The notes under the pieces are model-generated. The model ran no database searches. It was given only the letters and a program-made list of their open reading frames with translations, and was not told the DNA's origin. Both the position numbers and the translations under genes were made by a program. Below are positions 25,935 to 50,503 of a DNA stretch of 64,000 bases, piece after piece. Origin of the DNA: Chelatococcus composti (GTDB taxonomy: Bacteria > Pseudomonadota > Alphaproteobacteria > Rhizobiales > Beijerinckiaceae); the NCBI RefSeq assembly GCF_014201415.1, contig NZ_JACHEH010000004.1:434001-498000 (forward strand), read 5' to 3'. The first letter of the stretch is position 1; every line of letters starts with the position of its first letter.

Positions 25935-26090
25935 TCACTTCTGGACAGTCTGGAGCTGCTGCGCCTGCAGCAGGAGCTGGGCAAGCAGTTCCTGGAAATC
26001 TTCTGCGGTCCGCTGCTGTTTCTGGACGTCCTGCACGCCGGGAACGCATGCGGTAGAAGCCGCTTTATTCTGGCAACCTTGGCAAGCCAT
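25935..26090 (-). CDS. 51-residue Gln/Leu-rich peptide A with a CxxC head
   Basis: This short frame runs from ATG 26090 to the stop at 25935 on the minus strand and gives 51 residues: MACQGCQNKAASTACVPG, then VQDVQKQQRTAEDFQELL and AQLLLQAQQLQTVQK. A good AGAGG site lies 6 nt before the ATG, downstream of an AT-rich leader. The C-x-x-C pair and a third cysteine at the head are followed by a Gln/Leu-rich amphipathic helix. CAG and CTG codons are complementary, so a Gln/Leu-rich frame also exists on the plus strand here; the ribosome site and the Cys-rich start favour the minus strand. Unknown function; first gene of the A-B-C set. Confidence 0.55.
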   Translation of the reverse strand: MACQGCQNKAASTACVPGVQDVQKQQRTAEDFQELLAQLLLQAQQLQTVQK

Positions 26091-26316
26091 TACACACCTC
26101 TCAAATATCCGTATTTCTGGTGATATATCTTACATAAGTGAGCAGGATGAACCACTTTAACGGAGATATATTTTCATCTGCTCACGCTTCATGATGAATT
26201 GACCAGATTATCTATTCAACTGCTATAAATCAACGACCGGTAAACTCATAATTTCTGCTTGCACGGGGGCGGACCGGGAGGGATTGCGCGCTGCAGTTCC
26301 TGGCTGCCACAGCCCC
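26091..26316 (-). promoter_or_regulatory. AT-rich leader of the small-protein cluster
   Basis: Between the EamA gene stop (26317) and peptide A (26090) the composition drops sharply from the GC-rich background: stretches such as TTGATTTATAGCAG, AATAGATAATCTGG and AAATATATCTCCG occur on the minus strand. It probably holds the promoter of the small-protein genes; I cannot fix the -10 and -35 boxes with confidence. AT-rich upstream DNA in such a genome often marks foreign origin or silencing by a nucleoid protein. Confidence 0.5.
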
Positions 26317-46689: not shown

Positions 46690-47035
46690 CCGGCACCCGC
46701 CCCGCCGACCACGACGGGCCGCAACCTCTGCCCGTCAGCACCGTTGAAGCGCCGGCGCATGCGGGCCGTGCCCGCCTTTTTTCCGGCCGCCCTGCCCTGG
46801 CGATCTTTCACCGGGCCCGGTTCTCTGGTGCGCAACATTCCAAAGACAGAAACAATACATTTCGCGATTGATCACGATTAGTATCTAGACAAAATATATC
46901 ACGTTGCTATTTTCCGCACCGCAACGCACACCTGATCACCGGAAGAATCATATAGATATTATTACTCCATTTTTCTTCATGTGCTTCTGAAATTTCATTT
47001 CTATACCAAGATCTGTACGAACAAAGGAATTTGTC
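46690..47035. other. 346-base gap between mutL and the repeat protein
   Basis: The first part holds the mutL terminator (46761-46782). From about 46840 the DNA turns AT-rich (AACAATACATTTCGCGATTG; ATATAGATATTATTACTCC), in clear contrast to the flanking GC-rich genes. It should contain the promoter of the repeat protein. An AAAGGA site lies 7 nt before its ATG at 47036. I see no other gene in the gap. Confidence 0.65.
46761..46782 (+). terminator. Intrinsic terminator of mutL
   Basis: GCGGGC (46761-46766) and GCCCGC (46770-46775) pair around a CGT loop, followed by CTTTTTT. It lies 71 bases after the mutL stop. Confidence 0.88.
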
Positions 47036-47767
47036 ATGAGCTTTTGCATGCCGATCTGCGGCCCTGTCGTTTGCATGCCGCTGTGCCCACCCCCGTGCCA
47101 GCCATGCCCGCCGAGCCCACCGCCTCCGCCTCCGCCGCCGCCGCCGAACCCGTGCCCGCCCCCGAAGCCGGAGCCGAAGCCGGAACCGTGCAAGCCCGAG
47201 CCGAAGCCGGCGCCCTGCCCGGCCCCGAAGCCGGAGCCGAAGCCAGAGCCGTGCAAGCCCGAGCCGAAGCCGGCGCCCTGCCCGGCCCCGAAGCCGGAGC
47301 CGAAGCCAGAGCCGTGCAAGCCCGAGCCGAAACCGGCGCCTTGCCCGGCCCCGAAGCCGGAGCCGAAGCCAGAGCCGTGCAAGCCCGAGCCGAAGCCGGC
47401 GCCCTGCCCGGCCCCGAAGCCGGAGCCCAAGCCGGAGCCGTGCAAGCCCGAGCCGAAACCGGCGCCTTGCCCGGCCCCGAAGCCGGAGCCCAAGCCGGAG
47501 CCGTGCAAGCCCGAGCCATGCAGGCCCCAGCCGTGCGCACCGAAGGGTGGCCATTGCGATAGCAAGGGTCTGGCCGGCATCCTCGGAGAGCTGAAGAGCG
47601 TGCTGACGGCCCTCGAGAAGACGCTCAATGCGCTTTCGACGAAGCTTGCCGATCTTTGCGGCCTCGGTGAGCGTCCCTGCGGGAATGACGCGTGCAACCG
47701 CGATGACAGGAACGATATCACCTCCTTCATCGCGAAAATCTTCATCAGCCTGAAGCTTTCCCAGTGA
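47036..47767 (+). CDS. Cys/Pro/Lys/Glu-rich tandem-repeat protein of unknown function
   Basis: 243 residues. AAAGGA precedes the ATG. The N-terminus [17 protein letters not shown] is Cys-rich and not a signal peptide, then comes a run of prolines (about 25-38). Residues 44-162 are five full 21-residue repeats and a partial sixth, each reading KPEPKPEPC then KPEPKPAPC then PAP; Cys residues recur alternately 9 and 12 residues apart. The last about 70 residues form a helix ([20 protein letters not shown]) plus Cys-containing [16 protein letters not shown] and [13 protein letters not shown]. Pro every second residue suggests an extended polyproline rod. Possible roles include surface or metal-binding protein, but no family is recognised. 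Long open frames on the other strand and in a second plus frame are by-products of the repeats. Confidence 0.8.
47165..47521 (+). repeat. 63-bp in-frame tandem repeats
   Basis: Five 63-bp units begin at 47165, 47228, 47291, 47354 and 47417, and a truncated sixth at 47480. Units 2 and 4 are identical, and units 3 and 5 share two silent changes (GAAACC and GCCTTG instead of GAAGCC and GCCCTG), so a two-unit block may have been duplicated recently. Because each unit is a multiple of three, copy-number change keeps the frame. Confidence 0.92.
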
Positions 47768-48422: not shown

Positions 48423-49991
48423 CTAGCGCTTGCGCGGGCCGGTGGGCTTGCGCGGGCCGCCCGAGCGCGGGGGACGTGCTCCGGGCTTGCCGCCGGAGGT
48501 CCGCCCTGCCGGTCCGGAACCGCCCGGCTTGCCCGGACGCTTGCCGGGCCGCTCCTGCCCTTCCCGTCCCCGCAGGTCGGGCCGGTCACCGGAGGGACGA
48601 CGCGCCGGCTTCTGCACGGCCCGGACGGCACTGCCGCCGCGGGCGCCCCCTGCCGTTGCAGCAGCGCTGCGGCGCCGCGGCACGGGCGCCTCACGCACCG
48701 GCTCCTCGGTGGCGCGCACGATACGCTCGACCAGCACCCTGCGCCCGCGCGCATCGGCGATGCGGCCGGCGCGGGCGCGCTCCTTCTCCGCGTTCGCCAG
48801 GCGCTCCGCCTTCGGGTCGGCCCCGCGGCGTGGCGGGCGCGCCCGGCCACTGGTGTCCTCGTCGGCGCGCCACACGCTGCGGCCCTTCGTCTCCTCGGGC
48901 CGTGGAGTCTCTTTCGCCTCTCGCGCCGGCGCACGGCGAAGACCGGCCGGCTTCCTGCCGGCAGGCTCCGGCCGGTCGAGGATGTCGGTGTCGGGCGCGA
49001 AGATCGGCGCGTCGAAGTCCGCTCCGGCCTGGGCCGCGAGCTTCTCGCCGAGCTGGTCCTTGAGAACCCGGGTGCGCACCTCCTCCACGGCGCCCTCGCC
49101 GAGGTCGCCGAGCTGGAAGGGCCCGAAGGACACGCGGATGAGCCGGTTCACCTTGAGACCGAGATGCTCGAGGATGCGCTTGACCTCACGGTTCTTGCCC
49201 TCTCGCAGGCCCACCGTCAGCCAGACATTGTCGCCCTGCTTGCGCTCGAGCCGCGCCTCGATCGGGCCGTAGTGCATGCCGTCGATTGTGACGCCGTTGG
49301 CGAGGCCGTCGAGCGTCGCCTGGTCCGTCTCGCCATAGGCGCGGACGCGATAGCGCCGCAGCCAGCCGGTGTCGGGATGGGCGAGAACGCGCGCGAGGCC
49401 GCCGTCGTTGGTCAGCAGCAGCAGCCCTTCCGTATTGATGTCGAGCCGGCCGATGGCGACGACGCGCGGCAGGTCGGGTGGCAGCGCCTCGAAGACGGTC
49501 GGCCGTCCCTCGGGGTCGCGCGCCGTCGTCACGAGGCCGCGCGGCTTGTGGTAGAGCCACAGGCGCGTGCGTTCGCGCGTCGGCATCGGCTCGCCGTCGA
49601 TCGTCACCCGGTCGTCGGGGCCGATCAGTGTCGCCGGCGTGTCGATGAGCTTGCCGTTCACGGCGACGCGGCCGGCGCGGATGATCTCCTCGGCGTCGCG
49701 TCGCGAGGCGACGCCGGCGCGGGCCATGACCTTGGCGATGCGCTGGCGCCCGTCCCTGTCGGGCAGGACTTCGCGCGCAGCCACGGCGCGCCGCGCCGCC
49801 TTGCGCATCAGCGGGCTGTTGCCGTCCACGACGGCGGCCGGGCGGCCGCTGTCCGCGACGCCCGCCTTGTTCACGGATTTCTTCTTGCCGGCGGAACCGG
49901 GAAGCCGCTTGCCGGCTGCCTGCCCTTTGCCGGCCGGTCCCTTGCCACCGGCGCGGCGCGGGCCGCGTTGATCGTCAGACTTGTCGTTCAT
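48423..49991 (-). CDS. rluB: Ribosomal large subunit pseudouridine synthase RluB-like
   Basis: 522 residues. An N-terminal basic tail (about 1-80) precedes an S4 domain (RIAKVMARAGVASRRDAEEI, about 84-112) and a pseudouridine synthase domain with the catalytic Asp184 in G-R-L-D-I-N-T-E-G. This modifies a uridine in 23S rRNA (position 2605 in E. coli). From about 330 onward the protein is an Arg/Pro/Gly/Ala-rich disordered tail with repeats such as GRSVWRADEDTSGRARPPR and ending GGPRKPTGPRKR, much longer than in E. coli. The long tail is common in the group. The gene is divergent from tadA and is followed by rsmD. Confidence 0.92.
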   Translation of the reverse strand: MNDKSDDQRGPRRAGGKGPAGKGQAAGKRLPGSAGKKKSVNKAGVADSGRPAAVVDGNSPLMRKAARRAVAAREVLPDRDGRQRIAKVMARAGVASRRDAEEIIRAGRVAVNGKLIDTPATLIGPDDRVTIDGEPMPTRERTRLWLYHKPRGLVTTARDPEGRPTVFEALPPDLPRVVAIGRLDINTEGLLLLTNDGGLARVLAHPDTGWLRRYRVRAYGETDQATLDGLANGVTIDGMHYGPIEARLERKQGDNVWLTVGLREGKNREVKRILEHLGLKVNRLIRVSFGPFQLGDLGEGAVEEVRTRVLKDQLGEKLAAQAGADFDAPIFAPDTDILDRPEPAGRKPAGLRRAPAREAKETPRPEETKGRSVWRADEDTSGRARPPRRGADPKAERLANAEKERARAGRIADARGRRVLVERIVRATEEPVREAPVPRRRSAAATAGGARGGSAVRAVQKPARRPSGDRPDLRGREGQERPGKRPGKPGGSGPAGRTSGGKPGARPPRSGGPRKPTGPRKR

Positions 49992-50047
49992 GGCGCGGTG
50001 ATAGCAGAGTGCAGGCGGCGAAGCGAGGAGGAGCATCAGGCTTCGAC

Positions 50048-50503
50048 ATGAATAACAACGCGCGCACGGATGCGATGGCCGTCGCCCTGGCAGAAGCGGA
50101 AGCTGCCGCCGCACGCGGCGAGGTACCCGTGGGCGCGGCCGTTGTGCGCGACGGCCGCGTGATCGCCCGCGCCGGCAACCGCACGCGCGAGCTCAACGAC
50201 CCGTCCGCCCACGCGGAGATGCTCGCCATCCGCGAGGCCTGCCGCGCGCTCGACGACGAGCGACTTGCCGGCTGCGACCTCTACGTGACGCTTGAGCCAT
50301 GCCCCATGTGCGCGGGGGTCATCTCCTTCGCCCGCATCCGGCGGCTCTATTTCGGCGCGGCAGATCCCAAGGGCGGCGCTGTCGAGAACGGCGTCAGGCT
50401 CTACACCTCGCCCACCTGCCACCATGCACCGGAGGTCTACGGCGGCATCCGGGAGAGCGAGGCCGCGCGCCTGCTCAAGGACTTTTTCCGCGAGCGGCGC
50501 TGA
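50048..50503 (+). CDS. tadA: tRNA adenosine(34) deaminase
   Basis: 151 residues from ATG 50048. TadA converts A34 of tRNA-Arg(ACG) to inosine. Zinc-site residues are complete: His55-Ala-Glu57 in S-A-H-A-E-M and Cys85/Cys88 in E-P-C-P-M-C-A. GEVPVGAAVVRDGRVIARAGN at the start is typical. A GTG at 50009 is in frame but less likely. The gene is divergent from rluB with a 56-base gap and converges on glcF. Confidence 0.95.
   Translation: MNNNARTDAMAVALAEAEAAAARGEVPVGAAVVRDGRVIARAGNRTRELNDPSAHAEMLAIREACRALDDERLAGCDLYVTLEPCPMCAGVISFARIRRLYFGAADPKGGAVENGVRLYTSPTCHHAPEVYGGIRESEAARLLKDFFRERR

Follow-up and report, generated by a model that had tools for sequence, protein, structure and literature searches.

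A proline-rich rod swapped between two conserved ends is the most interesting property of a 243-aa protein encoded in the window, i.e., the whole 64,000-nucleotide stretch of Chelatococcus composti DNA that was analysed (contig NZ_JACHEH010000004.1). One gene at one locus in three species, with its ends conserved and its rod wholly replaced, constitutes a clean natural comparison, from which it can be asked which property of a proline spacer has to be kept: its length, its stiffness, its charge or the number of its cysteines. The features of the gene and of its upstream region are collected in Table 1.

Table 1. Position and basis of each feature (window coordinates; aa numbering of the 243-aa protein)
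Feature	Position	Strand	Basis
AT-rich leader, 215 bases, 37% GC vs. 69% in the window	46821..47035	+	Among the lowest-GC stretches of the window
Upstream box AATACATTTC..., 40 bp, conserved across three species	46847..46886	+	68% identity to both orthologue loci
Sigma-70-like promoter, TAGACA-16-TATTTT (candidate)	46886..46913	+	Consensus scan, 1 found vs. 0.2 expected; partly conserved in orthologues
Ribosome-binding site AAAGGA, 7 nt before ATG	47023..47028	+	AAAGGAA conserved in both orthologues
Gene, whole protein, 243 aa	47036..47767	+	ORF, ATG 47036 to stop 47767
Cys/Pro-rich head (aa 1-39), including a 10-proline run	47036..47152	+	Sequence; Cys/Pro pattern shared with MGCCIRVCRPAPVMCPPVCLPKC of orthologues
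Partial repeat unit preceding unit 1 (aa 40-51)	47153..47188	+	Tandem repeat analysis
Five 63-bp / 21-aa units	47189..47503	+	4/4 variable sites synonymous
Partial unit CKPEP, end of the array	47504..47518	+	Repeat unit comparison
Conserved 75-aa tail (aa 169-243)	47540..47764	+	Orthologue matches 9e-11 / 4.4e-10; 36-37% identity
Predicted coiled-coil helix (aa 178-207), heptad a/d all Leu	47567..47656	+	Heptad shuffle test; AlphaFold2 helix
Predicted second, hydrophobic C-terminal helix (aa 218-241), conserved NDI and basic positions	47687..47758	+	Orthologue alignment; AlphaFold2, low confidence

Conserved ends and an exchanged rod

The search with the tail alone matched two other genomes of the genus, those of Chelatococcus caeni DSM 103737 (NZ_JACIEN010000001.1) and C. 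sambhunathii DSM 18167 (NZ_LIOL01000004.1). In both, as in the window, the gene lies between mutL and rsmD in the orientation of mutL, and the encoded proteins are shorter (185 and 173 aa vs. 243). All three share the Cys/Pro pattern of the head and a tail that opens with CDxKGL, continues with the coiled coil and closes with NDI...LxLS, 26 of its 75 columns being invariant. The rod is entirely different: 21-aa KPEP/Cys units here, and in the orthologues an unbroken run of 35 or 39 prolines, then 16-aa units of the KPGPCPPKPECPPAPP type. Units of both types carry two cysteines, at a spacing of 9/12 residues here vs. 6/10 in the orthologues, so that no fixed metal geometry is conserved; nor is any compact metal-site motif conserved along the rod. 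The cysteines number 24 here, seven of them in the 40 aa of the head, and 18 and 15 in the orthologues, which keeps their share of about 10% at 9-10%. Judged from these sequences, rod type, length and cysteine spacing are free, and what is kept is proline richness together with about two cysteines per unit.

Between C. caeni and C. sambhunathii, the head differs by two synonymous and no non-synonymous changes, and the tail by three synonymous and four non-synonymous ones, which points to weak short-range constraint on the tail. The runs of 35 and 39 prolines are written in mixed proline codons, and the species differ in run length as well as in the number of 16-aa units. For elongation factor P, runs of this size in a bacterial protein are also a stringent test.

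The tail contains a four-heptad hydrophobic pattern that begins after the CDxKG motif. Its nine a/d positions, all Leu in the window protein, are occupied by Leu, Ile, Phe and one Gln in the orthologues, and the pattern exceeds that of the same residues shuffled (p=5e-5 for the window protein, 3e-4 for the orthologues). AlphaFold2, started from either query, predicts a helix some 32 residues long and then a second one at the end, in models that were built with three sequences and have low confidence (mean pLDDT 62). The first helix (pLDDT about 70-82) is the more reliably predicted part; the second reaches about 45-64 and shows no significant amphipathic moment (p 0.13-0.18).

The original prediction had drawn a Cys-rich head, a Pro-rich rod and a helical, Cys-containing tail, with neither a recognised domain nor a signal peptide. 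This anatomy is borne out by the sequence and the helix predictions; what it overlooked are a coiled coil of four heptads that is kept in all three species, a conserved and AT-rich region upstream, and the complete change of the rod from species to species. Overall its interpretation, which also held that the protein may bind metal or be crosslinked, is partly supported. The search that it proposed, for head and tail apart from these repeats in other Hyphomicrobiales, the order to which Chelatococcus indeed belongs, gave a positive though narrow answer: two Chelatococcus species have both ends around a different rod.

The repeat array and the reality of the gene

No other tandem repeat of the window comes near the array (47153-47517; period 63, 5.8 copies, 96% match, score 653) in strength, and the runner-up (score 76) overlaps it. 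It had been described as five 63-bp units and a partial one with regularly placed cysteines, and this holds, a partial unit flanking the five on either side. The five 21-aa units are identical and place the rod cysteines 12/9/12/9 residues apart. At the DNA level four positions differ among them, all of them third positions and all synonymous. As just 24% of the single changes possible within a unit would be synonymous, four out of four would be expected by chance with a probability of about 0.003 if mutations were even and independent; since the units are related by duplication, the pattern is supporting rather than decisive.

A recent duplication of a two-unit block, pairing units 2/4 and 3/5, had also been proposed. 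Unit positions 18 and 27, which alternate G,G,A,G,A and C,C,T,C,T across units 1-5, fit this proposal. Positions 51 and 57 do not: they separate units 1-3 from units 4-5, and a single clean two-unit duplication therefore cannot explain all the differences.

A collagen-like protein, with Gly at every third residue, was rejected as the units contain no Gly. The idea that a polyproline-II helix carries all rod cysteines on a single face was rejected as a conserved principle because the 9/12 spacing consists of multiples of three and the 6/10 spacing of the orthologues does not. A weak match that resembles a paralogue, at G000:C1:400442 (E 2e-5), covers rod residues 85-165 only and was taken as low-complexity.

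Could the open frame be a mere by-product of a GC-rich repeat, and no gene at all? The long mirror ORFs in other frames and the genus-restricted occurrence would agree with such a reading. Nevertheless, it is strongly contradicted by the orthologues, by the conserved ribosome-binding site and upstream box, and by the synonymous-only changes among units, and we regard it as hardly credible. On sequence grounds this is a real protein-coding gene, given that orthologues exist and that the units differ only synonymously.

Genomic context, range and upstream region

The neighbours of the gene, named from their ORF translations, are pgi, mutL, rsmD and a pseudouridine synthase. The latter (48423-50114, minus strand) carries a long low-complexity C-terminal extension rich in Lys, Arg, Gly and Pro, which varies among relatives and takes the form, for example, of GDRPRGDRPGF-type repeats in G008.

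In a fourth Chelatococcus genome the slot between mutL and rsmD is occupied by a MazE/PemK-type (MazEF-like) toxin-antitoxin pair, and searches with the tail, the whole protein and the head found no orthologue there. In G008, which represents the nearest other genus tested, rsmD closely follows mutL with nothing in between. The slot may be an insertion hot spot, and the comparison implies that the gene was either added within the genus or, being older, lost elsewhere. A tail profile found no convincing relative beyond Chelatococcus in about 1,170 sampled genomes (397 of the family, 397 of the order and 385 of the class, partly overlapping), a sample in which fast-evolving relatives could escape. 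The head profile, run against 299 relatives, matched the window alone and missed the two known orthologues, which makes this search uninformative; within the genus, a head search without the prolines recovered only the two orthologues plus one chance match.

Pfam gave no match at E<=1, NCBIfam and PHROGs nothing above chance, and the PDB profile search only chance coiled-coil or helical-bundle matches. An origin from a plasmid, a phage or a viral contig was rejected, as no relatives were found in any of these sets, and the literature search returned no papers on this protein or on proline-rich Chelatococcus proteins. Altogether, this is a lineage-restricted protein, so far found only in the genus Chelatococcus, with a recognisable and familiar general design.

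Upstream, the 40-bp box is the conservation peak of the spacer between mutL and the gene, the remainder of which mostly shows 29-60% identity, and it is probably a regulatory or promoter region. A regulon search with the box found no further copy with fewer than 2 mismatches in its own genome. A terminator-like hairpin (46761-46775) lies between mutL and the sigma-70-like promoter, so that independent transcription of the gene is probable. The leader yielded no RNA family. Its low GC content, together with a tail of 59% GC, could reflect acquisition from elsewhere or a relaxed composition. A second low-GC stretch of the window (about 40%) is located around 26041-26265.

Possible functions and known counterparts

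The reading that we favour, tentatively and a little short of an even chance, is that of a genus-restricted, probably cytoplasmic, self-assembling scaffold with a clustering or spacer role. The coiled coil of the tail would gather two or more chains, and the rod, in an extended polyproline-II form, would act as a length-tolerant spacer projecting the Cys-rich heads outward. Such a form is reasonable for KPEP units, as polyproline-II rods have been reported for the Glu-Pro/Lys-Pro repeats of TonB (PMC10771500). The many thiols might bind metal ions or client proteins multivalently, or form cross-links under redox control. The scaffold is supported by the same-slot orthologues, which keep head and tail around an unrelated rod, by the synonymous-only variation among units, by a head without non-synonymous differences between C. 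caeni and C. sambhunathii, by the conserved heptad pattern, by a tail helix predicted from either query, by the two cysteines per unit in both rod types and by the lack of a signal peptide or TM-like segment. The low confidence of the tail models, the weak short-range constraint on the tail and the differing cysteine spacing speak against it. The cytosol is proposed as its location because export signals are absent from all three proteins: a hydropathy scan found neither a signal peptide nor a TM-like segment in any of the three, and the best 19-aa segment here (mean 1.37) is the Cys/Pro N-terminus, which has no basic residue. We can further imagine, with considerable doubt, a new kind of intracellular scaffold, in which a coiled-coil hub would carry stiff, thiol-studded proline arms, clients would be assembled and released according to redox state or metal supply, and the type of arm would be freely swapped during speciation.

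Twenty-four cysteines in 243 aa would suit an oxidising place better than the cytosol. The protein might, accordingly, be an exported structural or surface protein that leaves by a route without a cleavable signal and is held together by disulfides of head and rod between chains with coiled-coil tails; the cysteine richness of the same-slot orthologues and the proline-rich rods of envelope-spanning proteins such as TonB point the same way. Yet three of three orthologues lack a signal peptide or TM segment and no secretion gene adjoins the locus, so that disulfide crosslinking would need an exception to the reducing cytosol or an undiscovered export route, and we hold this reading to be rather unlikely. 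Unlikely too, and by a fuller measure, is a metal store or sensor based on thiols, which would act like a metallothionein and have its capacity set by the repeat number. The conserved cysteine share and regular two-Cys units that can come or go in frame would serve it well, but no metallothionein or other metal-binding family was matched, cysteines 6-12 residues apart on stiff proline stretches are poorly suited to compact clusters, their spacing is not conserved and a coiled-coil tail would be needless.

PopZ has an N-terminal client-binding part, a disordered spacer of conserved proline content and a helical C-terminal self-assembly region (PMC9512792), and this three-part layout resembles the one seen here. 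A PopZ-like organiser of the pole or of a condensate is nevertheless improbable: no Pfam family is matched, the spacer is either rich in Lys, Glu and Cys or pure proline, and a linker whose length and acidity are reported to be conserved in PopZ (PMC9512792) corresponds here to a rod that is replaced. Finally, the polyproline might pair with the amphipathic tail helices, much as the Cys-flanked polyproline of ColQ/PRiMA binds the WAT helices of cholinesterase (PMC8518539), given that a long, Cys-adjacent proline run and a Cys-containing amphipathic helix occur in one chain. The resemblance is one of design only, the tail lacks the Trp that defines WAT helices and the longest pure proline run of the window protein reaches just 10 residues; we consider such pairing highly improbable.

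The protein can also be set beside several known systems. With TonB it shares Glu-Pro/Lys-Pro repeats and expected polyproline-II rods, while it has many cysteines, no N-terminal membrane anchor (no TM-like segment) and no C-terminal TonB domain (no Pfam match at E<=1). Like PopZ, it joins a short N-terminal part, a Pro-containing spacer and a helical C-terminus, here a predicted coiled coil; no sequence relation is detected (no Pfam or NCBIfam PopZ match), and spacer composition, cysteine content and the variable rod set the two apart. Metallothioneins are likewise small and high in cysteine, but here the cysteines are widely spaced on a proline rod, a coiled-coil tail follows and there is no family match. 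The proline-rich attachment domain of ColQ/PRiMA with the WAT helices of cholinesterase offers the same combination of Cys-flanked polyproline and amphipathic helices, in a eukaryotic system where two separate proteins meet through Trp-based helices.
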